Shown in pieces: positions 11,501 to 64,000 of a stretch of 64,000 nt of DNA. Made by a program: the position numbers and the translations under genes. The notes under the pieces are model-generated. The model worked only from the letters and a program-made list of their open reading frames with translations. It was not told the origin of the DNA and did no database searches. Origin of the DNA: Ophiura sarsii (lineage: Eukaryota; Echinodermata; Ophiuroidea; Amphilepidida; Ophiuridae); contig CM069455.1 in the NCBI GenBank assembly GCA_035610835.1, forward strand, positions 19,481,874 to 19,545,873, read 5' to 3'. How positions within the stretch are numbered: the stretch's first letter is position 1; every line of letters begins with the position of its first letter.

Positions 11501-11700
11501 CGAAATTTTGTGTCCGTGCGAAATTTTTTGACCGTGCGAAATTTGTTGACTGGTCGAGATCTTGAAAGGTTGCCAAATGTGGTAAGATCCCACAATGCAT
11601 TCAGACTTAAACATAAATTCACAAAATATTTTTTGGCGAGATGTAAAATACGAGAATAAGTACCCAAAAAGAATAAATAAAGTTGCGGAATTCGACATAT
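8525..11700 (+). repeat. Large tandem duplication, unit 1 (3,176 bp)
   Basis: It begins 'ttctggtgtcctcatttt' and ends 'gcggaattcgacatat', where unit 2 starts at once with the same 'ttctggtgtcctc'. Apart from one 540-bp absence at about 9944 and C-tract length, only a handful of differences were seen (8770 against 11946; a T-run near 9485 against 12661; 11107 against 14826). It contains no recognisable gene. The 104-codon ORF near 10216 begins with TTG and shows no domain. A degenerate pair of SINE-like A-box segments lies at 10131-10200 and a G/C-tract repeat at 11284-11590. Confidence 0.95.
11284..11590 (+). repeat. G/C-tract repeat family B, copy 2
   Basis: It starts CAGTGGCGTAGCCCCAG, then an 18-C tract, 'gtgcccccgcccccc', and ends with repeated 'gtgcgaaattttttgac'-like phrases. 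It is duplicated at 15001-15305 and related to 3866-4137 and 60289-60545. Confidence 0.75.
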
Positions 11701-13579
11701 TTCTGGTGTCCTCATTTTAGACTATAATAGGCATCGACATATATGCCTACATTTCTTATTTAAATCCGTAACATCCATGCTTATAGTTGACATAGAATCG
11801 TAGTACAAGCAAGTGATTGTATGTCGACATATTTTGATCTGAAACGTAAACTCTTGCTCTGCATGTTTATCGTTCTCTCTTTCGGCAATCTTTGATTTTG
11901 TGTCATTTGGTATAGCGCAGCTGTTTATGAAACTATGATAAATAGAATGCATTATCGCTTTGCATTATTTACGAGGTATTATATCTCTTGACGTCGCCAA
12001 CATAAACCATAATAAACTAATGGATTGCCATAATTACTGAAATATTTAAAGTAACACGATCAAAAGAAGGACTAACGGCAAGAATATATCACGGCATTCG
12101 AAGTGAAATGTAAACATGGTAAATGTCAATGGTGTATTAAGATATTTGGATAACAAATCCAATAACAAGTTTGTTTCCAGTAGTAGCAAGCCTGAAAAGT
12201 CAAATGCGAAATGCGGGTTTTTTATTTTAGTTTTTTTGCTTCTTCTTTTCTTGACTTGAAATTAGAGAAATACATTTTATTTTCTGCTACTTGTGAATGG
12301 GGTATCGATTGTGGTGAGCGAGTCCCTTGAAAACGAGTTCCGCACGAACATTTTGAGTCCCGGGAAAAAAATTTACCATCCTAAATCCGAGGTCGACAAA
12401 ATAAAAATAAGCTTACTAAAGGAAAACTTGTGAGCTAAATTAAATCACTTATTTAATGCAAATGCAAATGCAAATTTATAATGGAGATTCACTTGAAATG
12501 GGTTTATTTAGTCAAATCAGTGCATTTTCGTTACTCTTATGCTCACTAAAATGTGATTTTCGCCGCGGATTTTCACTTCCCTGTTTGCCGTTCGCCATTT
12601 TGAAACATGTTGGACACAATTTCGTCAAAAGATGGCGCCCTAACAATAGATTTTTTACCCGTTTTTTTCTATTACAAAAAATGCGCAAGAATCAAGCGTC
12701 AACATTAAATGCGCGCTACTGGAAACAAACTTGTGTTTTATTTGGCCTAATATTGTCACTTTTTTCTGTTACAATCTCATATATTCAAGATATAAGACGT
12801 TATACGTTTGCAAGCATGAATGTATTTCAACACTCGCGCGACATTTATATGATATATAGATGAAACATTGGCGCAACTGCGTAATGCAAGACTAGATATA
12901 AATCTTGCTTTAATAGTGTCGTTACACTTTGTTCCGTCGTGGACTTGAAACATCTAGCATTGTTTCCATGAATGTATGTTAGAGTCAATATTCGCCCCTC
13001 TTCTCTTTTATTATTATGCCATACCGAATCTTAAAAACTAAATCCTAATTTCCAATTAAAGTTCGTAGAGTCCTGTGTGTCAAACACGACTACATACAAC
13101 CATATTGTTATGAGTCTGAAACAACTGAGATATCGAGAAGAGAGGCAGATATTTAGCAAAATTGCGAAATACAATACGCATTGTAAAATACCATCAGGCA
13201 AGAATGCTGTTAAATGTATTTGTGAATAATGACTTCTGATTTTATAAAAGTGATTCATCAAATCATAAATTGGAGTAACTAACGACGGGCCCGCGGTACT
13301 CACTGCATATAAGAATCCATTAGTGCGTCGGATGTATTTAGATAACTTCAAATTTATTATGCATTTATATTTAAAATTATAGCTGGATTTCACTTGGTCG
13401 ATTTCTAGTTGAGATTAAACATTAATGGAAATACCAAAGCTTATCCAACTGGGATTTGTCAGTACTGGTTTAGTATGGCGTCGTCGAAACGGCTCAACAT
13501 CGTATCTCAGGAAAAGTCCTAAGACGATTTCTTGTGCAGTCCAGCATGCTTCACTTTCATCACATGACCACTGCTGTTT

Positions 13580-13720
13580 GTCAACAGCGTCTACTGGTTC
13601 CCATTGACATTACATTGTAATAAAAGGCATATTATGTTGTTAAAAGAGGGTCTTTAAGAAAATCCTGTAAGTAGTAGAATTTTTGATGTGATTTCAATTC
13701 AGTCCTCTCTTGCATGTTTT
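13580..13720 (+). repeat. Dispersed repeat family C, copy 2
   Basis: It is related to 6561-6710. In unit 1 of the large duplication its left part is absent and only the segment from 'aatcctgtaagtagtag' onward remains (from 9944). Confidence 0.75.
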
Positions 13721-15000
13721 AGTTGGGATTCAACTTCTTTTGAAAGTTATACCTAACTTAACTATGTATTATAATGTGGAGATGTGGAAGTCAGACGACC
13801 CTACTTTAACACATGTTTTACATTGTTTGTTTTCGGCGAAAGCCCTGCTGGTACTGTAGTGTAGTGGTGCTAAGCATGTTGGTACTGTAGTGTAGTGGTG
13901 ATAAGCATGCTGGACTGCACAAGTAATCGTCTTTGAGAACAGTCCATTTTCATTGGATTTTGAGATTTTGTTCTTTTATGATAATCATCGGTGCAACAAA
14001 TGGTAAGATACGTGCCAAGAGTTTAGTTTCTTGTCAATCGGAAATCACGCTATTTCGGAGCAAAGACGGTGTCATTAAAACCATGCAGTTTCCATGTCAT
14101 CTTCCTGCATGCCATCCATTTGTTATAAATACAACGTCATGTGTATATCTTCACCGGTGTAGTGTACCATCAATATGCTTCTTAGCTTTTAATATTGATC
14201 ATCATGTCCATCTATTCCCTCTGGAGAACTGGGTGGAATTGCCATAAATCATAAATATTTAAAAAGTCTATTTTGTTGTTGTTTTTATTTTGTTTGTTTT
14301 ATTTGTATTTTTAGGTGTGTTTGTTTATTCATGTGGGTTTTTTGTTTTGTTTTTCTTAGGTGATATTTGGTTCTATATTAATATCAGCTATTATGGCACC
14401 AGCTTTAAGTAGCTTATAGACAGAATTGTAAGATAGGTTCCATGACTTCCTCCCAAAGATATTCAGATTGTAAACTCATAGTGTATACATACATAAGGAG
14501 TAATACGCAGTGATTGAGTGATATATTCTCCGAATCCTATATCAAATAGCATAGATTAAACTAAAGCCGTTATCAAATTACATATTTTTTGTCATCACGC
14601 AAACTTAATCCAAAAGAGAATGCGGAGGGATTGTGATTGAAAAAACCCAAACAAAATCATCTACGTCGCGTGCATTTAAATGTACAATACAATCATGGTA
14701 CAAGTACACGGTGAAATACCAGTCTAGCAATTTGATCTCACTCTCTGTTAATAATTTATTTGCAATTTGTCAAGTGCGGAAAATCCATTCGTCGTCAGAT
14801 CAAAGAACATTACGCTTCCCAGAATGTCTTTTTTTCATTTCAATTGTTCATACATATTTGCTATACTTTGCCACAATATAATATGTGACCTCTTGCACAC
14901 GTTACAAACCTACAGTTTTCATTTATTTCATACCATCATCTACCCACACATTTATTCTAAACCCAAAACAACACGTAGACACGTCAGGTTAATGTCCAGA

Positions 15001-15305
15001 TCAGTGGCGTAGCCCCAGTTGCCCCCCCCCCCCCCCCTGACAGTATTTGTTGTGCCCCCGCCCCCCTCTTTGGATATAGTGCTTATATGTGGGGTAACCA
15101 TTTAAAAATGACCATTTTCGCCTTGTTTTTAAAAATAAATGAACATTTTTTTGGAAAAACTGCTTAAAACCCTGAGGACTGGCCAATATTTGTTGACTAC
15201 AGTGCTTTCGGACTGCGAAATTTTGTGTCCGTGCGAAATTTTTTGACCGTGCGAAATTTGTTGACTGGTCGAGATCTTGAAAGGTTGCCAAATGTGGTAA
15301 GATCC
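15001..15305 (+). repeat. G/C-tract repeat family B, copy 3
   Basis: This is the unit 2 counterpart of 11284-11590, with a shorter C tract. Confidence 0.75.
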
Positions 15306-15455
15306 CACAATGCATTCAGACTTAAACATAAATTCACAAAATATTTTTTGGCGAGATGTAAAATACGAGAATAAGTACCCAAAAAGAATAAATAAAGTTG
15401 CGGAATTCGACATATGTGTTCACTTGAACCTTTGCTTACATGAATATGGGACATC

Positions 15456-23854: not shown

Positions 23855-24765
23855 AGGGCTGTTAACCATCAGCATAGCTTCAGTAAAACTGCTGTAGTAA
23901 CTCTTTATTATTAATGTAATCTATATTAAAGTATACAATTTTTTTGCAGAAAATGGTTCAATGAATCCAACCATGATCATGAAATTAACCATTTTGGAGA
24001 AAATTATAAAAAACACGACCCATTTTAGGTTCTGCAAAAATTACTCAAAATATAATTTGTCAAATTTTGTCATACTAGTTTTATTATAATCCTAATACAA
24101 TTCCCTATAACAACCTTTTTTTTTAAAATATCTTCATTATTTTAGTATTGTCGACCAAAAAGTGCCAACAAATCTGCTTTTGGAACTTTTTGGTCAATAA
24201 TTCCCAAAATAATAAAGATGTTCAAAAAACCCAAACACACCCGGTTCCTAGGGAATTCTATCAGGAATAATATAATAAAACTAGTATGACAAAAGTTGAA
24301 AAATATATTTTGAGTTATGTTTGCAGAACCTAAAATGGGTCAAAAACGTGTTTTTATAATTTTCTCTAAAATGGTCAATTTCATGATCATGGTTGGATTC
24401 ATTGATACCCTTTTATGCAAAAAAATGTATACTTTTATATAAAATTATAACGAGGGTAAAACCATCCAATGGAAGAGTGCTCAACCCTAAAGGGGAGCCT
24501 TAGTAAACAAAAAACACTTGACTTGTTTGACATAATCTTTGACATATATTAATCACTTTCTGTGAACATGTATTATAATATGTACCATTGTGTGACACTA
24601 CCATTAAACATCTAGCTTCTGAGGAGTGAGGGTCTGTTCTCAGGCCCCCACGAAACAGTACTGTAAAGCAATGTAAAATCAAATTTTATACTTTTATATA
24701 TATAGATTAAATGAATAATGAAGAAGTTACGGCAGTTTTACGGAGGGTTAACAGCCCCGTGTACC
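23855..24765. mobile_element. Foldback element / long palindrome
   Basis: The sequence from about 23930 to 24150 is the reverse complement of about 24210-24440, with a centre near 24178 and a loop of roughly 20 bases. Paired examples are 'ccaaccatgatcatgaaatt' with 'aatttcatgatcatggttgg', and 'catactagttttattataat' with 'tataataaaactagtatg'. The outer arms continue with 'agggctgttaacc' (23857) against 'ggttaacagcccc' (24745). In the right arm this outer part is separated by about 240 bp of extra DNA (24445-24685). No ORF is seen. Confidence 0.8.
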
Positions 24766-41162: not shown

Positions 41163-42419
41163 TTAGCAAAACTTTGATTATAAAATACAATAATTACTTT
41201 TGCAAACATATGTATTAAAAATTGGATGTGACGGTTTATTTAATAATATAAAGCACCCTCTACGTTATGTGATTTCAAAACCTGGAAAAGCGCAAACTTG
41301 TGATACCGTTTACACCATAACTCAAAAACGAAATGTCGGATTTGTATAATATTTGGTATATAATATTACGCATACAACGGGCTACAAATCATGACGCCCG
41401 TCTTTTGAAATTCATTTCCAAATTTGAATTATAATGCAAAATTAGCTGATTAGTCGATCCTTGGTTGCCATGGCAACGATATAAACAAATCGGCTCTATC
41501 ATTTTGTGCGGAATGTTACTTTCAGTCACCAACCCATAACATTACATCAAGTTTGAAAGTTTGTGATATGGGCTAAATTAGGGTATGTATCACTATTGGG
41601 TCCAGCCATGGGCAACTTGTGATAGTTGTTACCCAATATAGGGGCTAATGACCCAAGACCCCCCTTAAGAGAGAAGATCTGTAAGCAAAACTCTTAAAAT
41701 TCAGACAAAATCAAAAAAATCAAATTTCCTGAAAATGGTGGTGGTGAAAGTGTTTGGTGAGGTAGCAATAAAAATGATATTAAAAAAATCGGATTTGCTT
41801 TGTTGCCATGGCAACAGGGAAAACAAAAGAACATCCGATATAGCAAGAAATTGCTATTTGAAAATCTCAAAATTTGAGTTTTTTTGCAAATTGTCACAAA
41901 AAGTGTAATGAATAAAAATTATTACTGCTTATATATTATGTTGCTACACGTGTTGCTCTACAACAAAATAAATAATACAAAAATAAATTGCGTTTCGGGA
42001 AATCCCCAAATGGATGCTTAAAAATCCCCATATTTGACCAATTTCAGAAGTCTGATTTTAGGTCAACTTTGAACCCGTGTATAAATCCAGGTAGTGATAT
42101 GTTTTATATGTCCAATTCAGGATAGAAACAATGAATCTTGCTCAACTCAAATCTACTTTAAAATAACTGGGATATTACTTTTTGAAAGGGTACTGGCCCG
42201 TCAAATTTGTCTCATTCTGTAAAAAGGCTCAAATTGAATGTATTAACATTTTCATGTTTCGGGTACTCGAAAAGGTAAAATATCAAGTATAAAGTCAATT
42301 ATATTGTTTAAAATGTCTCATACTAGTTTTGTTTTAATTTATTTTAGCCAAATAAATAACTATTTGCGCATGCGCAGAATTTATACAGCTAATAACTTGC
42401 TTATTCCTATATAATAATC
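41163..42419. other. Intronic stretch with a repeat shared with 47588-47697
   Basis: 41550-41662 is nearly identical to 47588-47697 ('tttgtgatatgggctaaatt', 'gggtccagccatgggcaact'). Otherwise nothing is recognised. Confidence 0.6.
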
Positions 42420-43425
42420 ATGACATTTGGTCAGTTACTCTATTGGATAAAAGATTTCCTGTCAGATCGTACCCAGCAAGTCATTTTGGAGGGAAAGAAG
42501 AGCAGTGTTGCCAATGTCTCATCGGGGGTACCCCAAGACACAGTACTGGGGCCCTTATTGTTTCTGGTTTTCATCAACGACCTGTCTGAGTGTGTTTCAT
42601 CAAGTATTCGCCTCTTTGCTGACGATGCCCTCCTATATAGACCTATCCAATCCCAAGAGGAAGACCTCGCTAATCTACAGCTATGGGAGAAGAAGTGGAT
42701 AATGTCTTTCAACGCAGACAAATGCGAAGTGTTAAGAATCTCCAACAAGAGAAACAACATCATTGGAGTATCACCTATTTCATCCATGAGACTGCACTCC
42801 GTACCGTAGAAGAGGCGAAATATCTTGGTGTCACCATCCATAAAAATCTCAACTGGAAACCTCACATCAACAATATCTGCAAAAAAGCAATAGCACCCTT
42901 GCCTTCATCCACCGCAACCTGAGGAGATGTCCTTCTAAGATCAAGGAACAGGCCTACAAAACATATATTCGTCCCACCCTTGAGTATTCGTCTTCAGTGT
43001 GGGACCCACACACCTCAGAGCTGATCTCCTCGATTGACATGGTGCAGCGACGTGCTGCTAGATTTGTTACGTCTGACTACAAACAAAAAAGCAGCGTGAC
43101 CAAGATGCTACATGAACTTCGATGGCAGACTCTCTATGAACGCCGGGCTCAAAGTAAAATCCTCATGATGTATAGGATCATGCATGGCATTGTCGCCATT
43201 CCTGCTGCTCCACCCTACTTGCACCCTTCTTCAAACCTAACCAGAGGTCACCATCTTCACTTCCAACAGCAACACTGCAGGATCCTTTCATACCAGCACA
43301 GTTTCTTTCCAAGTGTCATTTGCATTTGGAAAGCATTTGGAATGCACTACCATCCACTGTGGTATCAGCTCATGCAGTCTCTGGAGATCTTCCGGAGCCG
43401 CCTGAAGCCACTCACCCTTTGCTAG
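42420..43425 (+). pseudogene. Non-LTR retrotransposon reverse transcriptase, 5'-truncated (Jockey/CR1-like)
   Basis: Frame 1 (42420-42809) has WIKDFLSDRTQQV, GVPQDTVLGPLLFLVFINDL and the catalytic SIRLFADDALLYR. The invariant Gly of the GVPQG motif is Asp here. The frame shifts near 42795 to EEAKYLGVTIHKNLNWKPHI, and again near 42890 to RNLRRCPSKIKEQAYKTYIR and LEYSSSVWDPH, ending FRSRLKPLTLC and a stop. The order FADD, YLGV, RPTLEY, RAARF is that of the reverse transcriptase and downstream thumb of APE-type LINEs. A GTAGAA repeat at about 43538-43557 looks like the 3' tail. Two frameshifts and missing upstream motifs make it dead. It is antisense to the EGF gene. Confidence 0.85.
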
Positions 43426-50104: not shown

Positions 50105-51741
50105 TAAATCATCTTTATTCAGTCAAATAACCACATAAAAATAAAGAAGAGAACATTAAAAACCAAGACAACTGGGGCCTATACTGACCACCAGGCAAGG
50201 TGTTACATAAAGTACTATTGCACAATGATCGATATAAAAATCACATATAACATTAAAAAGGGAGGTGAGTCGGTCGTGACAGACCTGCTGCCATGAGGAC
50301 CTATATACAATTGGTAACGTTCCAATCCCGTTCGTGTCTTGATTGGAAAATGGAAAAAGAAGACATCAGACTCTTTTTCGAGATGTTGTTTTTGAGAGCT
50401 GTGTATTTAACGTTGCATTTTAGGGTTCGTAGGAGACCTCTCAGACGTGTCTTATTAGATTTTGTTATGAGGCCCCTTGATCCTATTTCAAAGGGGATCA
50501 AGGAGCACTTGTAGCCTGCGTCCGAGATATCTCCTACCAGGGCAGCATATCTGTCAGTCTTGAGTTTATTAGCTTTATCAACATTTGTTTCAAACGGCAC
50601 TGTGAGCTCAAATAAAATAATCCTTTTTTGAGCAGGGAATGTTAGAACAATATCAGGTTTTTGAGCTGTTGGTATGATGTCAGGAGGAACTGTCCCCCCT
50701 CCGGTGAGGTACTCTTCTATATCAGCGTTGATCAAGAATCCCTTGTCTTTAAAAGTCACACTATCTTCGAAAGCGGAGATCAGAATGCGGATGATATTGT
50801 TGATATGGCCGCCAGAGGTAGCGATCAAGCATCTGATTACAATTGTTGAGGATGTGGAGAAGAGTACCTTTTTTGGAACAGAGGGGGCAGTTACTACTTA
50901 GACGTTTCCCCCATTTGCAAAGGTTTGCAAATGTGGGGAGACTGTCAATTGCAGCATTAATTGCAAACTTAAGAACGCCTTCAGGAAGACCATACATAAT
51001 AGATTTCCACGTAAGATTATTTTCAGTTTCAAAGAGTAATTTTGCCGTGTCCCCCTGAGTGATGAGTGGTTCAACTACCGACTTCCAATCTTTTTTCAAA
51101 GTTGCTTTGACCTTGTTTTTTGTATTTTTCCAGACCGGTGGCTGTTCGGAATCTATGGAATTACAGTGGACTTGGTCCGCGAGAGCGATAGTGGAATATT
51201 TATTGCTCCAAGTCGATTCTCTTTGGAGTTTTAAGTCCAGTGCTTTGTTGGTAGTTGAATCACCAAGACATCGGGTTCTACTGTACAATAAGCAGTGAGA
51301 AACATAATATATATCAGAAACACGTGGGATATCAAGTCCACCATTCATATGCACCAGGGCTATGTTAGCACCATATTTGGACGTGCCCAGCCATTTCTTA
51401 ATAAATTGGTCACTTTTTCTATCAAGACAGAAACGCATAGATGGTAGGCAGTATCTACTGTACATCGCAAGTTTGTACTCGTTGCGGACGGGAGAACTAT
51501 CAATATTGGCAATACTTGATTCAAACTTGGAGTGAATCATATCATAAATATTACTTTGGCTGCCAGAGTGAGTGATAAGGGATCCGAGAAAACGTTGGGG
51601 GTCTTCTTTGACAGGAATGATACGCGTACCATCTATGTTGTATTCAACCACCTTCGGGACTCCACCACAAAGGGAAAGTGACTGACATTTACTTGGTTTT
51701 AATGTGAGACCCATGCTTTGTGTCTTGGATTGGAGTTCATT
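50105..51741 (-). pseudogene. RLE-type non-LTR retrotransposon (R2-group-like), 5'-truncated
   Basis: The minus strand starts in the reverse transcriptase downstream region, MGLTLKPSKCQSLSLCGG, then RFLGSLI and a long thumb-like region. A zinc-binding motif CPLCSKKGTLLHILNNC follows (C-x2-C-x7-H-x4-C). The frame then changes near 50815, and the C-terminal nuclease follows with KPDIVLTFPAQKRIILFELT and VPFE, the PD...E core of the restriction-like endonuclease. This is followed by EIGSRGLITKSN. The CCHC knuckle plus RLE arrangement is that of the R2/R4/NeSL/HERO group. A possible 3' end lies near 50105 ('gaataaagatgatttaat'). The catalytic YxDD part is missing and one frameshift is present, so it is inactive. 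It lies in sense orientation with, and probably within, the EGF gene. Confidence 0.85.
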
Positions 51742-52901
51742 CTAACAGAGGCCATTATTGCAAATAAAATGTCTCAGAACTTTTATCGTAGTGTAATCAT
51801 GATAATGGTTATAAGGAATAAAAACCTTCGCAGCGGACTGTAAAGTAGAATTGTTTGGGATTTTGACGCTCTATTCAAGCCATTATGAAATGATCATACC
51901 ATTGTAATGGCAAAGATGACAATAGTATTCAGGAACAGATCTACGAACTAGTGACATGATATATTTCAAAAGGAATGAAGCGATTGCAGCGAACACAAGA
52001 TAATAGGAACATGTAACGTTTACAAAATGAATTTCATTTACTACTCTAAATATATATGCATAGCAAAGATGATAAAATGTACGAACAAAGAAGAAAAAAT
52101 GAGACACAAATTATTACAATATAACTGTGTAAACGTGTTACCATGGATACGTTTCTGGCCTAATCAAGTTGATGACATGATAGTGAATACGATCTTTGTT
52201 TATTGAGATTATTGCAATTAATTTTAATTAAAAAGCAGGGTTCTTGTATCAAAGTGCGTTCGTAAAGGTTAATTAAAACATATTATATATTATTTATGAC
52301 ATGGGTAGGTTAATGAAAACATTATATTACATTTAACTTAGTGCTAGAAGTACCTGCGTCTATTCATCAAAATTTTGTAGTATTGTATATAATTATTTAG
52401 ATTATTTACAGTTTTGATGTTTATATAAATATAAATGTCCTGTCTCCCATGCCTAAATGTTAATCGGCCAATGCTGGTAATTGGCGGGCCATCATGGTGT
52501 CCCTTAACTTATACTAGATATGGTTAACTATTCTTTTCATGGCATGTCGTATCCCTCCGAACAATTTGAGACCATTCTGAGCAAAATCGGAGCATTTTGA
52601 GAATTTGATCCATGTACCAAAATAATTAGGAAAATATTGACCATTGACCTTTTGCCCTGTATCTTGGAAACTAAGCATCGTGTGGAAATACAACCATTAT
52701 TTTTGTTGCTCTTAATGATCTCAGGAACAGTTTGATATACATACCACCGGAATCTCAGCATGTTTGCAATTTGACCCCTGTAGTACTTTCAGGAGGTCTA
52801 GGGCCTAGGGACATAATGTCTTGGATGACCTAAGTAACTTTAGGGGGTCAAACCTTCTGTACTTTGTGGGTTGAAATCATGTGTGACAGGCTCCCAAACT
52901 A
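51742..52901. other. Unassigned stretch
   Basis: No recognised exon, repeat or RNA. Confidence 0.45.
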
Positions 52902-53846
52902 TACACTCTCAGAACAGGTATTAAATAACCATGGGTTAAAAGAATGTTGGTTAAAAAGTATACAACATTGGTTAAAAATGAAGCGTTGGTTAAAAATTAC
53001 TTTTAATACTGCGTTGGTTAAAGAGTAAAAATTTAATCAATTTTTAGTTTATTCAACGTTGGTTAAGGCATCATAATTTTAACCAACAATAGGTCATAAC
53101 AAGATTCCCGCCAAAGAATTTCATTGGCGAGGACAATATTTTGCGCATATTATTTAGACCACGTCAGAATTTGTATATGAAATCAATCGTGTTATTGTCC
53201 GCTCCTGGTATTTACATTGGCGCTCTTCAATTGCCAAACTAATATTGGACCAATATTGGTTTTACATTGGTGCTCTTCAATTGGCATTATGTTGGCAACC
53301 AATATTGTTCCAATAATGGGCACATTATACCAGGGGCGGAAATAACACGATTGATTTCATATACAAATTCTGACGTGGTCTAAAAATTGCGGCCGCTGGT
53401 TAAGTTATCGCATCCCGGCCTCGTGGCTAGGATCTTGTGCCTTGTCCTGTCCCTTGTTGGTCCTGGCCACGGGTTGGCGCCAATATTGAAAGCCAATATC
53501 GGGCCAATGAAACATCAATATTGTAATGTTGTATGGGTTAAAGTTTAGCACAAAAAAGAAGAAGTTTAACCAACATTTTTTAACCAACTACTGTTGGCCA
53601 ACAAATGACCAACAAATGAGTAAAAATTGTAACCAACCACAGGTTAAAGTTTAACCAACCACTGTTGGTCAAAACATATTAACCAACAAATGATTAAAAT
53701 GTGTAACCAACCACAGGTTAAAGTTTAACCAACAGCTGTTGGTTACAGTTTTAACCAACCAATTGTGTGGTTCACCTGGTAACCTCCCGTTGGTTAAAAT
53801 TTTAACCAACATGGTTAAAGATTTTAACCTTTGTTCTGAGAGTGTA
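52902..53846. mobile_element. Motif-array element with TTGGTTAAA repeats
   Basis: The termini TACACTCTCAGAACA and TGTTCTGAGAGTGTA are perfect inverted repeats of 15 bp. Both sides are filled with dozens of variants of 'gttggttaaa' (left) or 'tttaaccaac' (right), so the two halves are themselves inverted. The centre holds a separate 58-bp inverted repeat at 53153-53386. No protein is encoded. Confidence 0.75.
53153..53386. mobile_element. Nested inverted-repeat insertion
   Basis: The arm 'tttagaccacgtcagaattt' through 'gttattgtccgctcctggta' is mirrored by 'taccaggggcggaaataaca' to 'aaattctgacgtggtctaaa'. About 58 bp pair on each side. Between them are 'ttggcgctcttcaattg'-type direct repeats. 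Confidence 0.85.
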
Positions 53847-54308
53847 GAGTTTTGGTCACTGGGATGTTTGTATAAGAAGCGGCTCGGCCAAGATCCTTCT
53901 TTTTTTCTTCTTTTTTTTTGGGGGGGGGGGGGGCAAACTTTCTAGCACTAGCTCCATGCTGCTATCTGCAAATTCAGATGTTGTGTACATTGAACACTCA
54001 GAGGTGAAGATTTTAAGCGAGCTCTGCAGTGATGGCACCCAGATCTACGGTACCCCCATGCAACCCCCACCAGATGCCCACAGGAAAATGTAGATAAAGA
54101 CTAATTGACATACCATGTGGCTAGTGAGTTCTCAGATCTAATTTTAAAGAAATGATGGGATTCTTTATTATTGATTAAATTGTTGATAATGCTGTTGAAG
54201 TTTTTATTATCTTTGTGATGTGATTATCAGCAAGCTGCCTCCGATGGACACTGGATTGGGGTAGTCAGAGATTGGTGTAAACAGAGGATCTATTTTAGAT
54301 ATACTTAC

Positions 54309-54590
54309 AGCATAATTGAGCTCTTTCCAGTAGTTGGTCAAGCATCGCTGGTGTCCAACTAGTGCTGTTGGTAATCGCATTTGGTTGGTCCGTAAACCAG
54401 AAATGATCGGGTACCACATCTTGATCGACTTTCAAGCAGCCTTGTGTACTAATAAATGTAGGCGCCACTACCCACTGGCAGTAACACATTTCTATCCACG
54501 GCAGTGACCATCGATATCGTCCAGTAGAAGGGTCTAGTCTTTCCCTTAGCAGACACACATGTGCGTTCACGGTCGATGAGAAGTATGCTA
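54309..54590 (-). CDS. Candidate upstream exon, unrecognised
   Basis: A strong donor (GTAAGT after TATGCT) closes an open minus-strand frame with FSSTVNAHVCLLRERLDPST, then YRWSLPWIEMCYCQWVVAP and VPDHFWFTDQP, ending ERAQLC in phase 1. Phase 1 is what the EGF exons accept. The peptide has a cysteine and tryptophan content like an extracellular module, but I do not recognise the domain. The acceptor side is weak, so the left limit is uncertain. It may be a real exon of the same gene or a chance ORF. Confidence 0.35.
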
Positions 54591-55392
54591 TATAAATTTG
54601 ACCATTTTAGAATAAAATCGTATTTTCTTAGGTTAAACTAGACAAAATTTGACAATTCTAGCATAAAACAGCTACGTTTTTCGCACCAGCGAGTTTTCAT
54701 ACCAAATTAGTTAGAACTAGACAGAATTTGACAATTATAAAGTAAAATGGCAAAAAATTTAGCGCGCTTTGCGCGCATCTTCTTTTCTTCATTCACCTTA
54801 CAAATTATTGCCCCCACCCCTGATTATGATGCTGGTGCCGCCAATGGTTGGTGTGATATTATCAGGAATAAAGGTGCCATTTGAAATTATTACCTTCATT
54901 TTATTGTCATTATATCATGCACTGCGAGCGATCAACCCCGTGTAGGTAACAATCAGATGTTGCAGTTTTTACTGATTTTTTGGATACGTTGTAAGGGTAA
55001 CAATTGCCTTAATATCATCGCAAATCTAACTACTTTCCAGTGAGAATCACATCAATCATGCTTACCTATAAACAAATATAGTCTTAGCGTATGCAGGGTA
55101 TTCGTCAGATAGTCCATGCTATGTTATATGATTTTCTTCTTGAAATATATCCCGGAATATAACTTTAAGGTTTAATATTGCAATTGTATGTTAGTACTGA
55201 AAAGTACTTCGCTCTCTATTTTGAAATCGTGGCATTATAAGTGTGACAGATGATGGCTATGCCTTTGTCTAGTCCGTCATCGTCACCATGGTAACGCGAG
55301 ACAACTTAATACGGATTTGCCATAGGATATCTTAAGGGGTGGGTAGGAAACCTCAAAGAAGATTTCTTAAAGGTGTATGTTCTGATCACTTT
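54591..55392. other. Unassigned stretch
   Basis: It contains three loosely repeated phrases 'agacaaaatttgacaattct' between 54600 and 54740. Otherwise nothing. Confidence 0.4.
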
Positions 55393-55495
55393 ATTTTGGC
55401 AATGAATTTTTTTCACATCAAGATATTTTGATATCAGATGAATCCCCATCTTTTTCTCATTACGTCTGTAAAATCTTAGGGGCCAGAATCAGAAT
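55393..55495 (+). repeat. Dispersed repeat family E, copy 2
   Basis: It matches 26915-27020, the sequence just right of the assembly gap. Confidence 0.85.
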
Positions 55496-56467
55496 TTTGT
55501 GAGGGCCTTACAAAGCTAGTCGTGCGGAACTTTTGCTACTGATCCTCTATCCAAAATTGATTAATCTCGTCTGGTCCATCAATTAATGACTACAAAACCA
55601 TTGGCGCATATCATACCTTTTAATTTGATATGAATGAGTATGTCAGCCAAAGCGGCTCAATTTGTTTCCCGAATAGAAATAATAAACAATATGCTTTTAA
55701 CATGTTTATTTCGTTCGAAACTTCTCAAAAATCAAGCTAATTGAAGTATGTAACAAGCTCTTTCATCGTACATACATTATTGATTAGCTATGTTTTTAAA
55801 TGTTTTTTTTCTATTCCATCATATTCATGTTTTGAGTTTAGTTTGTCATTGTAATCTTTCGTGGCATTGATATTTTTGGAACATTGTTTTTATTTTTTAT
55901 ATTTTGATCAAGGAAAGTTGATCATCAAAAGGGTTTTAATGTATTCGTTTTAATTTTGTAATTGTTTATTGCTACAATGGTGTTAATTTGCACCATTTCA
56001 AGTTGATACAAGTGCAGACAGATAGCTACTGATGTTTTATAGTTTATATTTATTGAAATTCAAGTGTATGAGTTACCATCACCATATCATAAATGTATTG
56101 TTAATTATAGGCTAAAATCCTAATCCATAGGATTGGTTCTTTTATTATGTTATGGGAAGTCTATTTGAGAGTCAAAGCCAATCAACTGGTCTGTGTACTT
56201 CAAAAACTTGACCATGCAGTAATCTCTTTCACCAGTTCATTAAGTTTAAAGGTTTTTTGTATTGTGTTGGAGTTACTTATTCATTTCTGTAGCAGAGTTT
56301 AATTTTTGGTTTTGTTTATATAATGATAATAATAATAATACTAATAAAACACTAATGATAACGTTAAGGAGAAATAATACATGACATTAACTAACAATAA
56401 CATTCATTAACATTAATAATTAAATTATGCTAATTTATTAAAGTTTTCACAAAATTTGCACGATTTT
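55496..56467. other. Unassigned AT-rich stretch
   Basis: AT-rich DNA with an AAT-type microsatellite near 56325. No gene seen. Confidence 0.5.
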
Positions 56468-56512
56468 TACGACGGGCTGTCTTTAGTCACTTGCTAGGGA
56501 CAGCCCGTCGTA
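56468..56512. repeat. Strong hairpin, 14-bp perfect stem
   Basis: TACGACGGGCTGTC is mirrored exactly by GACAGCCCGTCGTA around a 17-base loop. It is GC-rich against an AT-rich background. Confidence 0.9.
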
Positions 56513-56628
56513 CAAATATGCAAATTCATTGAATATTTGAATAAATTTGCATAATTAATTAGCTCTTAAAGTAATTCCCGTTGTTATTTATAACGGAATA
56601 AAGAGCATTATTAGTTGATGAAAGAAAC

Positions 56629-56664
56629 TACGTTAGGGCGAAATACTATTTTCGCCCTAACGTA
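56629..56664. repeat. Strong hairpin, 15-bp perfect stem
   Basis: TACGTTAGGGCGAAA is mirrored by TTTCGCCCTAACGTA around a 6-base loop. A third, near-identical half ('tttcgccctaatgta') lies at 56690-56704. Confidence 0.9.
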
Positions 56665-56971
56665 ATAATGAGTGAATATCAAAAACCTGTTTCGCCCTAA
56701 TGTACCTGTTAGCAAAGTAATAATAATAATAATAATACTATTATTTAATAATAATAATAATAATAATAACACACACTTATATATAGCTTAAAGCAGCGGC
56801 ACCAATGCGCTTATATGTTTAACAAGTTACTAGGCAACTGCTACTTAAGTCACCCATGTAGTTGTAAGGGAAGTTATTTTAAATCATTTTCCATCAGAGT
56901 CACTAAAGTAATAAAGTCCATCTTATTTCAGCCTCCATCGGCACATCTTACTTTAGTTACTAACAATTTGG

Positions 56972-57197
56972 CATTATGTTCCGACTCCTTAACACTTTTG
57001 TGTGTCAATTGCCCACTACGTGGTCCACTTGTAAGACTGCAAAGGACATAATGATGCCATAAGGGCATATTATAACCTTCATAACCCTGAAAGTGGACCA
57101 CATAGTCAGAGGTTGATAAACTCTTAGATGATTTATTACCAGCGAAATGTCAAATCACAGGTTAAAAAGTGTTAAGGGAGTGGGAACATAATGGATT
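56972..57197. mobile_element. Foldback element
   Basis: 'gcattatgttccgactcctt' + 'aacactttt' is mirrored by 'aaaaagtgtt' + 'aagggagtgggaacataatg'. An inner pair 'ctacgtggtccact' / 'agtggaccacatag' brackets the centre. The ORF at 56815-57051 overlaps its left part and is not a gene. Confidence 0.7.
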
Positions 57198-57686
57198 ATG
57201 CATACATTTATATTGGAGATTTAATGAAGTTATCATGAGTTTAGTTAAGTGTTAACACATCTATGAGGGCTCCGGTTTATCGCCTTTGTTTTAGTTAATT
57301 TTCCCCGACAAACACCCCTACAATCTGTTCGTGAAGCATCAGCAAAATTAGTTTTAGTAATCAGCACGTTTCGATATACCACCCTGCGACAAGTACAATA
57401 TCAAAACATTTTGAATTAAAAACATGCCATCCGAGTTGGCGGGGACTTGACAGGATATTTATGAAGAAAGCATATTATGATAGTTTATGCTCACCCTTCA
57501 GTGGGACTGTTCCTCCACCCATTTTCAACAACATTGAGTACAATTGTGTAAATAATGTGAATATCTATTGATATTTTAAGGCTACAAATTGTATGTATTT
57601 GTTATTTGTGCAACTCCAGCACAAACTCTTTGAGATATATATATACATACATAAAAATTCAAAGTTTAGACCTTCCGAGAAAGGGA

Positions 57687-57729
57687 GTCGTTACTCTGAG
57701 TTTCATGCTTAACGCAATCATCAGACGAC
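57687..57729 (-). ncRNA. Type I hammerhead ribozyme, copy 1
   Basis: Minus strand, in order: stem I 5' strand GTCGT (57725-57729), invariant CTGATGA (57718-57724), stem II TTGC-GTTAA-GCAT with three good pairs plus a U-U next to the core, invariant GAAA, stem III ACT-CAG-AGT (3 bp, 3-base loop), the cleavage nucleotide A, and stem I 3' strand ACGAC (57687-57691). All core nucleotides are present. The very short stem III is usual in animal type I hammerheads. Predicted cleavage lies between 57692 and 57691, after the A that follows AGT. Activity is inferred, not shown. Confidence 0.85.
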
Positions 57730-58046
57730 AAGGATACTGATTGTGTGACTGGTTGGCTATGGACTAGATTAGTATGCATACACTTTCAATGGTGTTTAAT
57801 CACTAAAAGTGTGTCACACTTCTCCAGCCCGTAAGCCAGCCAGTCCATTTCTCAGGACCGGTCTAAAAGCTTCGAGGATAGCTTAATAGTGCTCAACTGA
57901 TAAAAAGTCAGGAGCATAACATAAAGTATAAAGTCATGAATATCGAATCGATTTCATGGTCAGACTATCTTTCGAATAACAGTGCTCAAATCCAATAAAG
58001 GATGAGCTATATAAAAATTCAAAGTTTAGACCTTCCGAGAAAGGGA

Positions 58047-58089
58047 GTCGTTACTCTGAGTTTCATGCTTAACGCAATCATCAGACGAC
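58047..58089 (-). ncRNA. Type I hammerhead ribozyme, copy 2
   Basis: Identical to copy 1, exactly 360 bp further on. It includes GTCGT-CTGATGA, GAAA, the ACT-CAG-AGT hairpin and ACGAC. Predicted cleavage lies between 58052 and 58051. Cleavage at both sites would give a unit-length RNA. Confidence 0.85.
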
Positions 58090-58258
58090 AAGGATACTGA
58101 TTGTGTGACTGGTTGGCTATGGACTAGATTAGTATGCATACACTTTCAATGGTGTTTAATCACTAAAAGTGTGTCACACTTCTCCAGCCCGTAAGCCAGC
58201 CAGTCCATTTCTCAGGACCGGTCTAAAAGCTTCGAGGATAGCTTAATAGTGCTCAACT

Positions 58259-58654
58259 AATAGTGTATGTATTTTATTCGTAAACTGTGTTTAAGTACAT
58301 GCAAATCCAAAACAACCCCTTTGAGATACACACTGTTGAATTGAGGCATGCATTTGTTGCTCCCAGCGTCTTTACATTCGTAGATTCTGCATAAATGAAA
58401 TCAGGCTATCAAGCACGAATATACATGAACTACTACCAGTGAAGTGGAACCAGTGAATTGGAACCGCTCAAAATACATTTACAGTTGATTAGAAAATATT
58501 TCAAAAATAATAAATGGTGCAGAACAAATGGAGTCTCTCTTATTAAAAAGAAATCATCTCGATTTAATGGTATATATAAAGGGTTGTCTGAAGATAAATT
58601 TATTGTTGGTATGGCAACGGTAGTATAAGATATGGATATGAATATCATTGAAGA
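58259..58654. other. Unassigned stretch right of the ribozyme repeat
   Basis: Its first 70 bases share 'gtatgtattt' and 'tttgagata' with the left flank of the ribozyme repeat (57589-57637). This may be a remnant of a target duplication or chance. Confidence 0.35.
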
Positions 58655-59263
58655 CTGGGGGCGGGGGGGGAGGGGTACTTAGTAGATATGAGATCATGGG
58701 GATTTGCCGCCAAATAGGGTCCCATTTTTCAACCGTCCCTAAGCCATGGGCATAATCGTAATGTTCTTCTTCACTTTTAAGGTTAAAAGTTATGCATTTT
58801 TAAGGCAATGATTCAACATTCTGAATCAGTAATTTTGGTATTTTCTCACATGCCTACTTTGAGTAAAACATGAGTAAAATCCAAACAAAAAGTGTGCACA
58901 TTCAAATTCTAACTTAAAGGCATGCTACCATTCTTGGTTGATAGCCACCTCCAGTTTTCTTGGGAATTTTACAAGGTTTATACAATTTCTCCATGTTAAC
59001 TTTGCACTGTCTGTCACCAAATGAACAGATGTATAACCAGTTAAACAACATCCACACCAAGAGGGTAGGGTACAGGGGCGAAGCCTAAAAGCTCCAGGGT
59101 TTTAGACGAAGTGATAATAACGCTGGAGTTGATTTTTTAACTCCACGTTACAGTTTTAGGATGAAATGATTTAGTGAAACATGTGATGAATTTTCTGGAA
59201 TCATTATCAAAATTCATTTTACATTGAAATCAATGGGGATTTAATATTTACGACCGATCGTGT
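58655..59263 (-). repeat. Composite repeat block, copy 2 (includes family D)
   Basis: It matches 28305-29010 and then directly 29581-29720, including 'tacttagtagatatgagatc', family D at 58915-59050, and 'attttacattgaaatcaatg'. Confidence 0.9.
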
Positions 59264-60290
59264 CTACCGTCTGATTTTCTTGAAAGCAGAATGTTGGCCT
59301 CATGCGTTGAATAAATGAAATGTTATGTATTTTCCTGTTTTGAAAACATCATCACATTTCCACAGACGACGGTGGACACGAACGGCCGTTAATTTTGAAT
59401 TTCCGTTGGTTTCAATGTAACAATGGATTTTGATTATATGACCCCATACAATTCATCACACGTTGGAACTAAATTATTTCATCCTAAAACCACTGTGGAT
59501 GGCTAACCATCCGCAGTTTCAGTATCATTTTTTGAATTTAAACCGTTGTTAAGCGTTCGTCCCATTCACTTGATCACGTAACCTCGTTCGCATATTTTAA
59601 CCTGAATATTTGTGAATACGCCCGTGTCCAGCGTCGTCTGCATTTCCATCTTAAATGTGAATGTCGCCCTCTAGAGTTAAGTAATAGAAATGCTGGCATA
59701 ATCCTGTTATACCCTACACACCTACATCGGTAGTATGCGTCGTTCTTAAAATCATGCACTATGAATACCTCTGTGAAGGGTATAACAGAATTACTCCGAA
59801 ATGCTACGTTATGTGTTATAATTTTTAAAACAAAGCAGGATGTCTTTGTTCAACAGAGGGCGGTTGTACGGGATTTGTTTAAAGATTCCCTCTCTCCCTG
59901 AAATGTGAACGTTGCCATTAGATTTGCATTATAAAGTTGCTACTTTATTAACTATTTTTTAAAACAAAGGAGGGTGTTCTTTTCAAACAGAGGGCGGCAC
60001 TGCATACAAGGCAAATTTGTGTGCGATTTGAATATACCAATATTAACTGTTAATCAAGAAAACAAATACATAACAATAGCACTAAAGTACGCGAAGTGAA
60101 ATTCTAGGATGCTAAGGTAGGCCAATGCTTTACTAAGGATTAGAAAGTGCAAAACATTCTTCGCAGCGCTGTACTGCATACAATGCGAAATTGATACGTG
60201 AACGACTGAACACATGAACGAAGGCGAGAATACGTGAATAAAATCAAGTCACTCACTGTTAGTGATTACGAACCAAACAGACAGCAGAAC
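59264..60290 (+). repeat. Large repeat family F, copy 2
   Basis: It is the counterpart of 32838-33700 in the same orientation. It carries an extra segment around 59355-59640, the 103-bp insertion below and a short 31-bp insertion near 59870. It lacks the 33091-33353 insertion. Confidence 0.9.
59695..59797. mobile_element. 103-bp MITE with 8-bp target duplication
   Basis: The ends GGCATAATCCTGTTATACCC and GGGTATAACAGAATTACTCC are imperfect inverted repeats. It is flanked by gaaatgct at 59687-59694 and 59798-59805. The related sequence at 32970-32985 has a single gaaatgct and no insertion. Confidence 0.9.
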
Positions 60291-60545
60291 ACTCAGGGCC
60301 GTCAGATGGGGGGGGGGGGGGGGGTGCGTTGGGTGCGGACGCACCCCCCTGGATTTAAAAAAAAAAAATTGTTAATGTAAAAATTGCGTTTTTCTTATAG
60401 TTTCAAATTTCAATGATAGTAAAACTACTCATAAAACATTGACTACAGTGCTTTTTGGACTGCGGAATTTTGTGTCCGTGCGAAACATTTTGACGTGCGA
60501 ATTTTTTTAACTTCAACCCCCCCCCCCCCCCCCCCCCCCCCCCCA
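60289..60545 (+). repeat. G/C-tract repeat family B, copy 4
   Basis: It has a G tract at 60309-60322, 'gactacagtgctttttggac', 'ttttgtgtccgtgcgaaa' and 'gacgtgcgaattttttt' in the family order, then a C tract of about 26 (60519-60544). Confidence 0.75.
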
Positions 60546-60777
60546 AGCAAACGATGCTAATACACCTACGACGTCACCCACATTAAATTGAAGACTGAAA
60601 CAATCATTGTAAACCAAACTAAAACAATCCAAACATCACGCCCCCCCCCCGTTTTTTCTTTTTTATTGTCATCACAAATACAAATACTTACCCTTTCGTC
60701 GATGTGCCAGTCACAAACACAATTTACTAACCCACTGACCCTCCACCTCTCCTGGGTTTGTGCCGGTGTGTACGAGG

Positions 60778-61716
60778 GTTGGTCATTAAGTTATAAAAGT
60801 GATCATGGTATGGGATGCATGAGTAATTCTATTGCGCGATAGTGTGATCAATACAAAGTATGAACCTTTGTCTTTCAAACAATGCACTTTTGGACTTTTA
60901 AGTATGAATTATGACGTCACAGCATTAGCTTAAAGGAAGTAAACTCTGGACACTGCCTGACATCTGTCAATATTTAGCTGGATATGAAATAGGTTGAAAT
61001 ATGGGTCGATAGATACGTTTGCGTATATCTCGGCAATTCAAGCAAGTTGTGGCAGCCATATTTGATTGATAAGTTCATGTATATCTTAATTTTGATTATC
61101 AACATAATTATTCACATTGATTTAAGCAATTTTCAATGTTTCTGATTAGATTTTGAAGGCACAGTTCAAAATTATCTGCTGTCTTCGCATGCGCATATTT
61201 TCTGTAGGTTTCATGTGAACAAGTTCCGATAATTAGGTAACTATCTAATGGAATCGCCCAAACTGGTTAATTTCTTGGATTTGTCCTCATTTTTTTCAAT
61301 GGAAAAGGGCTATTTGAAATACTGATATTTGTGTACTTTTTATTCAATTGCTTTTCTTTACTTTTTCCTCTTATACTACATATTTCAAATTTGACAGGGA
61401 TTAAATTTATTATCTTAGGTATCATATTCATGCCACAAAAATGGGATTTACCTGCTTCTGGTGTCATGTTATGCAATCTTCTTACCACGTGTTTCTTACA
61501 AACATTTCAAATTTCCCGCCAAATAATTGATTTAGCAGCGTCCAAAGTGTACTTACTTTAGGCTAATGCTATGACGTCATAGTTCATACTTAGAATCCAA
61601 AAGTGCATTGTTGGAAAGACGAAGGTTCATACTTTGTATTGAGTAACACTATCTCTCAATAGAATTACTCATGCATCCCATACCATAATCACTTTCATAT
61701 GAGATTGGTATCATGG
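60778..61716. mobile_element. Inverted-repeat element of about 0.94 kb
   Basis: Arms of about 140 bp pair: 'catggtatgggatgcatgag' near 60804 with 'ctcatgcatcccataccata' near 61667, and 'acaatgcacttttgga' with 'tccaaaagtgcattgt'. Small indels occur between the arms. The interior (60940-61560) has no transposase. The 76-codon ORF at 61331 has no recognised domain. Confidence 0.8.
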
Positions 61717-62599
61717 CGACTAAACAAAGAATTCAAGATGGAAAACCAAGTACGTTATGGCTTATCAAACAATTAAATATGTTCTATGGGCCCGACGAAC
61801 CCATAATTTCTTGGTTTTTTTTATGGAGGTGGGTTTGGAAATTAGTGTAAAATTTGAAACAAATTGACAAATTTGAAGAAAAAAGACACATTTTGAAAAC
61901 AATTGAACATTTTTGTACATTAATAACAACCAATGACTTTTACATTTGGAATTAAAATAAAACATGAACACTTGAACTTGAAATTTAAAGACCTGAGCGT
62001 AAGAAGTGAACAGAAAGTGTTATTGCATTGAAACTTGCATGGATTTTTGGTAAATTTAAGTTTCATTACACATAGGAGTTCTTGACAATCATGACGTTTT
62101 GTTCAAAATAAGTATTAATAAAATGTATTGATTTTTACCTTTGTCATTTCTTGCGCTCAGATTGGATCCATGGATAATTATCATATTTAAAGATATCAGA
62201 ATTAATAATATTGGGTGGTTTCTTTTTAATATTCGGAAAAATGTATCCGTCGGGCTCATAGAACAGGGTGTTTTCGTCGCCATGACGAAAAGGATTACAA
62301 CTTTAAAGTAATCATGCATTTGTAGAAGGTTGTTTACCTCTCAGCAATTTTCTAATCAAGTAGTTACATTTTATTGGACTCGTTAAAAGGCCCTTTTGAT
62401 CATATATATATATAAACATACATTTAACACAATTAGTAACTGACCAGGTGATAAATGTGCTTTTACCTCAAACACTATGACTCCTATATAGACATTATTG
62501 AGTTTAAATTATAAAGTTGTTGAGAATGGTTGATTATTTAGGAAGTTACAATCCCAAATGTAATTTCAAGTACGATTTTCATTTTCGAACCTTTGTTTT
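61717..62599. other. Unassigned AT-rich stretch
   Basis: No recognised feature. Confidence 0.45.
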
Positions 62600-62690
62600 T
62601 CTGCCCGCGGACTCGAACCGGCAAATGATTGATTACTTGTATTAGTAGTGCTAATTCACTTGCCCAGGTTGTTGGGTAGTCGGCCGGCCG
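62600..62690 (-). repeat. tRNA-derived SINE head
   Basis: On the minus strand an A-box-like TGGGCAAGTGAATTAGC (62650-62666) is followed by a B-box GGTTCGAGTCC (62609-62619). The spacing is tRNA-like, but no cloverleaf can be closed, so this is a SINE or tRNA relic. Confidence 0.55.
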
Positions 62691-62734
62691 CATTGGTACG
62701 AGTTGCATTGGTACGGTTGATCTATTACATCACA

Positions 62735-62945
62735 CACGCTTTACTCTCTTAATGTAAACGAGTGAAATTGTCACTCGTGGTTCAGAGTGAAGTCATTGTC
62801 ACTCGTAAAGAGTGAGTTTTCACTCGGTGTCGAGTGACTTTTCATTCTGTGCGGTTGATGAGTTCAGAGTGAAATTATTGTCACTCGAAAAGATTGATTT
62901 TCACTCTGTGTCGAGTGACTTTTCACTCTGTGCGAGTGATCAGTT
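62735..62945. repeat. GAGTGA/TCACTC motif array
   Basis: About ten GAGTGA and eight TCACTC words alternate in about 210 bp ('gagtgaaattgtcactcg', 'gtcgagtgacttttcactct'), forming two tandem halves of about 100 bp. The array resembles the other motif-array elements, but no terminal repeat was found. Confidence 0.75.
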
Positions 62946-63234
62946 GTACCAGATTTAAATAATTTGAGAGCCGGAACACAATCAAATAGAAAAATATTCA
63001 AACACTCAAAATATTCTTTATTTTATTAAATTTAAACAATATTGATGTGATAATTAATGAAGATATCAATGTTTATTGTTTCTGTAATAATTTTAAAGTC
63101 CAAATAATGATTAAATATAATAAATAACATTAATGAAACGCGTAAAGACATCATCGATAAAAAACACCATAGAAAGTAGAGTTAGATACTTTTACATAGA
63201 GAAATATCATGTTAATATATGATATCGTTTCACT

Positions 63235-63720
63235 ACACACTTAAAAATAGGTAGTCAAAATTTGACTACTTTCTGTAGTCATTTTCAAATGACCCCTTAG
63301 TAAGTCATATATGACCCTTAATAAGTCAAATATGACTGCATACGGGGTTGATCTTTATATTTTGATTTCGTATGAATTAAAAATAACTATATGAATGAAG
63401 TCATATTTGACTTCTATTAAAAAGTCATTTTAAAACAACCCCCATTTGACCCCCATACAGGGTTCTTCATCTTTTGACTTGGTATGAAGTGGAAAATGAC
63501 TATGTTAACATAGTAGTAATTTGACTGGTTTGGGGGGTCACTTTGGAATAGCCCTGGATGTAGTTAATTTGACCACCATACGGGGTTGATATTTGCCTTT
63601 CGACTTTGAATGTAGTTAAATTCGACTTTGTATGTAGTTAATAATAACTAGGTCTATATGGAGTTACAATTTAACTGCAGCAAAAGTCATCGTCAAAATG
63701 ACTACCATGCCAGTCAAATA
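63235..63720. repeat. AGTCAAA/TTTGACT motif array
   Basis: It starts 'cactacacacttaaaaatag' and then has more than twenty copies of 'agtcaaa', 'tttgact' and 'atgactt' variants, plus 'catacggggttgat' repeated three times. The start resembles the TACACT-type ends of other arrays here. A matching right end is not seen before the window edge. Confidence 0.65.
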
Positions 63721-64000
63721 TTAAATATTTTATGAATATTTTTGACATAACAATAGCTCAATCCTTCAACCAATTCAAAGAATAACAGCACATATTATTT
63801 CCATGTATTCAATTTCATCTACAATAATATGAAATTTAATTAAACACTATTTGAAAAACATGTCTCACAACGCCGGCGTCTTGATTAGGCAAATCATCTC
63901 ACAACTAACGTGAATAACACCATGGAAAGTCGATTCGTAGGATAGTATACTGGTACATATCTAACCAAAAGAATTTAAGACATCACTGCTTGATGGCAGT

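Follow-up and report, generated by a model that had tools for sequence, protein, structure and literature searches.

The Array and Its Surroundings

The window analyzed here is a 64,000-nucleotide stretch of the Ophiura sarsii genome (contig CM069455.1). On its minus strand, 57651..58258 holds an array of 1.69 laps of a 360-bp unit, very probably a retrozyme, with the transcript strand running 58258 -> 57651. Comparison of the window with itself shows two identical 248-bp stretches, 57651-57898 and 58011-58258, offset by 360. The remaining 112 bp of the unit (57899..58010, minus strand) occur here only once, the 5'-most lap of the transcript being incomplete. Each lap carries a minus-strand type I hammerhead motif: hammerhead 1 at 58047..58089 (58089->58047), with a predicted cut at 58052/58051, and hammerhead 2 at 57687..57729 (57729->57687), with a predicted cut at 57692/57691. 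The cut-to-cut distance predicts a 360-nt monomer RNA (57692..58051, minus strand), and unit position 1 is 58051. Past the second cut lies a 3' tail, unit positions 1-44 (57648..57691, minus strand), which stops at the preferred 3' end of the family; identity with the other lap stops at unit position 41 (57651). An earlier, sequence-only reading of the window had described two hammerheads in an exact 360-bp tandem. The repeat, the identity of the 248 bp common to both units, and both motifs stand, but not two full units, the array comprising 1.69.

The unit has a GC content of 39%, and its longest ATG frame, read around the circle, is 37 aa; no reverse transcriptase (RT) or GIY-YIG frame lies within 57651-58258. 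An LTR layout is absent from the unit, whose lap series is not LTR-like (PBS and PPT were judged by eye). Pfam scans of 52001-64000 were empty, which is weak evidence, as the same type of scan missed the Penelope-like element (PLE) of locus L347 described below. The frame of that PLE has no match in the whole window (tblastn, E <= 1e-3).

An imperfect direct repeat flanks the array on the plus strand, with its left half at 57587..57637 and its right half at 58259..58328. The halves are 83% alike over a 29-bp core, and the right half, in a loose alignment, starts exactly at the array end. An equal score was reached in 3/2000 random pairs. This repeat is no exact target-site duplication (TSD), and no exact TSD was found at the window copy. 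Because its halves are 83% alike and the units of the array are identical, the ages of the two look unequal, with the flanking repeat apparently the older.

Remnants of LINE-type reverse transcriptases lie elsewhere in the window at 42396-43425 (+) and 50301-51741 (-), with RVT_1 above its cut-off and zf-RVT below its own. A recent large tandem duplication occupies 8525-15415 (8525-11700 vs 11701-15415, 99.8% identical), and a 536-bp stretch, 13122-13657, is limited to its second copy.

The Hammerhead Motif

The minus-strand motif of each unit reads GTCGT CTGATGA T TGC GTTAA GCA T GAA ACT CAG AGT A^ACGAC. Its core is CTGATGA...GAAA, H17 is A, and the predicted cut follows this A. Stem I (GTCGT/ACGAC) is open and has 5 bp, stem III (ACT/AGT) has 3 bp, and stem II begins with a U·U mismatch at 10.1/11.1, followed by 3 bp. 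The invariant type I core (CUGANGA...GAA, A15.1-U16.1, H17) is present in each unit. The full hammerhead set claimed by the sequence-only reading is thus right in its core, 3-bp stem III, H17 = A, and 5-bp stem I, and incomplete in leaving the U·U pair unmentioned. By eye, loops I and II show a CCUU/AAGG pairing with a 12-nt bulge; in mussel retrozyme hammerheads, most of the usual loop-contact letters are missing (PMC7229834).

Stem II of natural hammerheads may begin with U10.1-U11.1, and this mispair supports more cleavage than every other one, according to PMC3088659. Axolotl HHR_Amex2 likewise has a U·U at the base of helix II (PMC7229834), and by eye so do the PLE hammerheads of L297 and L312. 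The same UUGC/GCAU stem II occurs at 13 viral loci (L241-L253, IMG/VR contigs), where the full stem reads UUGC-AAAA-GCAU. Stems I and III are paired in all 13 when G-U is accepted, and six distinct stem I hairpins occur. Neither of two viral control patterns found a match, one with a stem II that is not complementary and the other with a different U·U stem, so U·U is no general trait of viral contigs. The viral loci share the U·U stem II of the unit but have type III topology, and the likeness is presumably convergent. By eye, these type III hammerheads lie just upstream of an ATG. Among prokaryote contigs, a long pattern found 0 relatives and a short pattern two unrelated matches.

A descriptor with stem I >= 5, stem III >= 3, and stem II >= 3 bp, in which the first pair of stem II may mismatch, matched once in 10,000 windows simulated with a third-order Markov model. 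With stem I loosened to >= 4, four matches per 10,000 such windows were obtained. Two independent loci of the actual window pass this looser form, 57724/58084 and 24619, and no locus of the reversed window does. Among natural viral decoys with a core and stem III, stem I reached >= 5 bp in 1/120, and stem II was absent there. At the thresholds used, the window holds no type II or III hammerhead and the unit no plus-strand core.

The covariance search proposed by the sequence-only reading came back empty. No Rfam family matches the window at gathering, neither RF00163 nor any other hammerhead family matches the array even at E <= 10 (111-base test), and the motif at 24619 has no Rfam hammerhead match. 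Silence at gathering is weak evidence because 10 viral control loci with the canonical pattern were equally silent (hammerhead match in 0/10; 8/10 passed the stem check), and Rfam was dropped as a judge of the motif for this reason. Two controls were found in the 111-base test, a canonical type I hammerhead at 28.4 bits and a viral type III hammerhead at 28.0 bits; with the canonical control found and the window motif missed, the latter appears divergent and weak.

Dispersed Copies and Conservation

Further genomic copies, which the same reading had led one to expect, are abundant. At least 106 places in the 1.574 Gb assembly match the unit, full-length relatives among them, with 40 of 1409 candidates scored. 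A core pattern with 27 fixed letters, CTGANGATTGC-N5-GCATGAAACTCAGAGTA, has 417 exact matches genome-wide and the reversed pattern 0; the abundance of the hammerhead core is not chance. By eye, the matches listed have C, A, or T at N7. Unit lengths in the genome are 360 and about 352-354 bp.

The mapped set comprises 40 loci (39 fetched plus the window) with 76 complete hammerheads. Lap series of 1.0, 1.7, 2.0, and about 3 occur, several loci having one lap, and the laps mostly adjoin directly. The longest series among the matches listed, six hammerheads at 354-bp spacing, lies at C3:74074419-74076221. Locus L276 (C7:78195739-78197632) holds five laps head-to-head, three one way and two the other, and has the form of an inverted retrozyme insertion.

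Hammerheads in general leave N7 free to vary. In the mapped hammerheads N7 differs from the window in 43/76, and the other 42 positions differ in 15/3192 cells. The core is changed in 2/684 cells and U10.1/U11.1 in 0/152, and at least one pair is broken in 9/76 copies. Of the 40 loci, 19 have T at N7, 16 have C, and 5 have A. With one vote per locus, 0/42 of the other hammerhead positions vary in >10% of loci, vs 32/317 elsewhere in the unit (Fisher p = 0.015); counting N7, the figure is 1/43 (p = 0.07). Mean divergence outside the hammerhead is 5.3%. With N7 counted, the hammerhead is more divergent than 43/360 of the circular 43-nt windows, which shows conservation in further parts of the unit. 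A scan of mutations within the genome, covering positions N7 and G8, found G8 changed in 2 genomic copies vs 417 with G8 kept. A free N7 beside a near-fixed remainder shows selection for catalysis; this natural mutation record of a ribozyme makes that selection visible without a bench assay.

Ends and Insertion Targets

End positions were counted for the 43 blocks longer than 300 bp in the 40 loci, with the duplicate-like pairs L278/279, L280/281, and L289/290 included. Of the 43, 27 have their 3' end at unit positions 39-45, 12 at 122-138, and 4 elsewhere. The 5' ends fall at positions 33-41 in 19 blocks and are otherwise spread; none of the 43 lies at unit position 1, the 5' end of the cut linear monomer, the nearest being 357 and 20. 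TA runs in the target blur the ends between unit positions 39 and 44.

TSDs were sought without L279, L281, L290, and the loci with TA-rich flanks, which leaves 24 loci. Seven of these have a TSD of at least 8 nt (8-14 nt), against a shuffle mean of 2.49 and a value of 7 reached in 4/2000 shuffles. Five of the seven TSDs consist of A and T only, the exceptions being L278 and L282. Insertion flanks are 81% AT vs 64% further out. In 16/40 loci (duplicate-like pairs counted) an inverted block adjoins, a pattern like that left after twin priming.

Penelope-like Elements and a Possible Link to the Unit

The other locus that passes the looser descriptor lies in a hammerhead-bearing PLE end region at 24515..24709 (+), a sequence also found 3' of the L347 PLE frame. 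The region runs on to about 24745, in sequence common to L336-L338. Its type I hammerhead (24615..24669, +) has a predicted cut after 24665 and a perfectly palindromic stem III (ACAGTACTGT). An inverted piece of the same PLE (24442..24513, minus strand; 100% to L347 4027-4098) is joined head to head with 24515, forming a truncated inverted PLE end. This end is high-copy, with at least 40 genomic matches (40 scored of 666 candidates).

In L347, the same motif as at 24619 is found 364 nt downstream of a 644-aa open frame that contains YRDDG. Over 547 residues, the frame shares 54% identity with P0020 (Solemya velum), which passes the whole-protein Pfam cut-off for GIY-YIG (26.2 vs 22.6 bits), with no single stretch passing alone. 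For the L347 frame itself, Pfam gave no match and the solved structures no relative; on its sequence we call the element a PLE. Having missed it, Pfam was dropped as a PLE finder and replaced by tblastn with the L347 frame. The frame recurs, 95-99% identical, in 7/12 of loci L335-L346, and tblastn finds other PLE pieces, 44-50% identical to it, in L296, L297, L311, L312, and L334.

Seventeen L347-family tails were compared past the cut. Five (including the reference L346) continue in one shared sequence, four (the window copy and L336-L338) in a second, and eight enter flank matching no other; seven of these eight end 33-36 nt past the cut and one at 28. The last 20 nt of the retrozyme and of the L347-family PLE are coterminous and agree at 15 positions, a level reached by 5/20,000 random flank 20-mers and 2/1101 AT-matched ones. 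Without the end condition the likeness is weak, 335/5000 random 44-mers matching the L347-family tail equally well. Outside the tail, the unit and the L347 PLE are not significantly alike (best E 0.36).

PLE coding pieces adjoin the unit in 4/39 fetched loci (L296, L297, L311, L312). A different hammerhead follows 27-135 nt after the end of the PLE frame in L296, L297, and L312, and the tail past its cut measures about 45 nt in L296 and L312 and 40 nt in L297 (hand counts, TA-blurred). An unbroken TA tract follows the PLE tail in L297 and L312, and then comes the retrozyme, 3' end first; in L296 the PLE tail is followed by a further stretch, a TA tract, and the retrozyme, again 3' end first. 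Retrozyme and PLE 3' ends thus face each other over one TA tract in 3/40 loci. The cut-to-end distance is usually 39-45 nt for the retrozyme and about 33-45 nt for the three hammerhead PLEs. In the L347 PLE family the end letters resemble those of the retrozyme, and the other two PLEs end in other letters.

A common enzyme would explain the shared targets and cut-to-end distance, as would a mere common liking for TA tracts. For the L347 PLE family, the likeness of the end letters may reflect a borrowed start signal.

RNA Folding and a Proposed Mechanism

As a circle, the 360-nt RNA folds to -110 kcal/mol (z = -6.2). The plus strand is equally stable, and an equally low z occurs in 2/87 background segments; matched in this way, self-pairing was set aside as proof of a retrozyme. 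The hammerhead fold of the monomer has -4.1 kcal/mol vs -9.5 for the best fold of the 43-mer (5.4 above it) and lies 9.8 kcal/mol above the best fold in a 101-nt context. Paired hammerheads come to -19.8 kcal/mol, no more than 2.5 away from the best dimer; two separate monomers in their best folds have -9.5 each. With a near-palindromic stem III and a weak single-copy fold as the reasons for favoring the dimer, this folding model suggests that the hammerhead probably acts best as a dimer. Cleavage of axolotl HHR_Amex2, with its U·U, is slow in the monomer and better in the dimer, according to PMC7229834. The hammerheads of newt and salamander satellites, as presented there, also combine a weak monomer fold with a palindromic or near-palindromic stem III, for which dimer action is plausible; the unit differs from them in its stem III of 3 bp with a 3-nt loop.

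In the mechanism that we propose, a minus-strand transcript would fold a type I hammerhead in each unit, best as a pair, and the predicted cuts at 58052/58051 and 57692/57691 would release a 360-nt RNA. A host RNA ligase would close this RNA to a circle, as expected from other animals (PMC7229834); we infer both cleavage at the predicted sites and the circle. A cut AT-rich target would then prime a reverse transcriptase, which would begin close to UAUAUA (39-44 nt past the cut) or at another site around 122-138 and copy one or more laps until it stops. This enzyme would most likely come from a PLE, since hammerhead PLEs end similarly past the cut and in the same kind of target.

Alternative Explanations

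The observed laps are explained both by a circular template and by an uncut multimeric one. A process in which uncut multimeric RNA is copied from a start near unit position 34, with the hammerhead dispensable for moving, is unlikely without being far-fetched. The clustering of 5' ends at 33-41 (19/43) would fit such a start, although it may stem from the TATATA at 39-44 joining TA-rich targets. Reptile PLE hammerhead mutants insert like wild type in vitro (PMC11167929), and yet the hammerhead here is strongly constrained, with only N7 free, where an unneeded ribozyme would differ.

We regard as quite improbable the view that the unit is the solo terminal repeat (pLTR) of a PLE and no independent retrozyme exists. 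Type I hammerheads and partial tandem arrangements are indeed known from PLEs (PMC11167929), hammerhead PLEs are present in this genome, with PLE coding pieces beside the unit in five loci, and the stem III ACT/AGT and helix II U·U of the unit also occur in the PLE hammerhead of L312. However, in L296, L297, and L312 the PLE has a hammerhead and tail of its own that differ from those of the unit, which is oriented the opposite way on the far side of a TA tract, as for an insertion. The similarity of the unit to the L347 PLE, at best E 0.36, and the missing match of the L347 frame in the window speak against this view, as do laps that mostly adjoin directly. None of the 40 loci mapped, out of a family of far more, holds a PLE frame flanked by same-direction copies of the unit.

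That a segmental duplication or ordinary satellite DNA made the tandem, with a hammerhead-like motif in it by chance, is scarcely credible. The tandem organization and the identity of the units are what such an origin would produce, but a simple duplication gives 2.0 copies where 1.69 are seen, and the 417 exact cores on many contigs (reversed control 0), the variation at N7 only, the TSDs, and the inversions all oppose it. An LTR-type, plant-like retrozyme with two 248-bp LTRs around a 112-bp body, although the repeat can be drawn as 248-112-248, can be all but dismissed, given that the laps elsewhere number about 1, 2, or 3 and break off at many different points instead of following a fixed LTR layout, a short exact TSD is missing at the window ends, and the hammerhead is type I vs type III in plants.

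Relation to Known Systems

At the sequence level, we find the motif, its selective conservation, the copy number, the ends, the AT-rich targets, TSDs above chance, and the inversions, and the array is very probably one insertion of a metazoan non-LTR retrozyme, non-autonomous and without a protein. The match to metazoan retrozymes suggested by the sequence-only reading is upheld by the genomic copies, the unit length, the GC content of 39%, the type I hammerhead, the lack of an ATG frame longer than 37 aa, and the self-pairing. The sequence features by which retrozymes are recognized are found here: tandem units of ~150-450 bp with one type I hammerhead each, dispersed copies, GC < 45-50%, no coding, TSDs >4 bp where they occur, and strong self-pairing. 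Linear and circular RNA of unit length would be a further, expected feature.

Published retrozymes are likened to the unit here by their features. Those of the mussel Mytilus galloprovincialis resemble the unit in having a type I hammerhead per unit and one-to-few tandems, lengths of 350-390 bp, low GC, no ORF, a self-paired RNA, and co-existing PLEs (PMC7229834). They differ from it at helix II, which starts with U·U here. Hammerhead PLEs resemble the unit in their type I hammerhead, partial tandems, internal RT start, AT-rich targets, and tail of 30-40 bp (PMC11167929), but they encode an RT and a GIY-YIG endonuclease, and the unit encodes nothing. The start site of the reptile PLE is not homologous to its target (PMC11167929), whereas the UAUAUA of the unit could pair with TA-rich targets.

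Metazoan non-LTR retrozymes are a known kind of element; new here is the 3' end, usually 39-45 nt past the cut. As possible movers of animal retrozymes, PMC7229834 names LINEs or PLEs, with a general preference for PLEs. One genome now gives a concrete, testable link to PLEs. A limited literature search found no earlier report of a shared retrozyme-PLE end. The ends and targets point to Penelope-type machinery as the most likely mover. That the retrozymes of this animal are parasites of PLEs, using a PLE-type RT start 33-45 nt past the hammerhead cut and the same TA-rich targets and being copied as circles, is a serious possibility that we nonetheless lean slightly against, and the PLE pieces beside retrozymes pull both ways on it. 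If it holds, the cut-to-end distance and the lap series would be a genomic print of an RT running round a circle.

Further hammerhead families were revealed by a looser stem II loop pattern, which has 115 genomic matches with N7 = T. Among 20 further loci, stem I of >= 4 bp is found at the expected place in six (L315, L317, L319, L323, L333, L334); L320 and L322 show odd stem matches only and the remaining loci none. With so few keeping stem I, many appear decayed. Loci L315-L332 belong to such families, with other stem II loops (e.g., CUUAUUG) and an often decayed stem I, and by eye CTTTGAA recurs in the tail in 11/18 of them.
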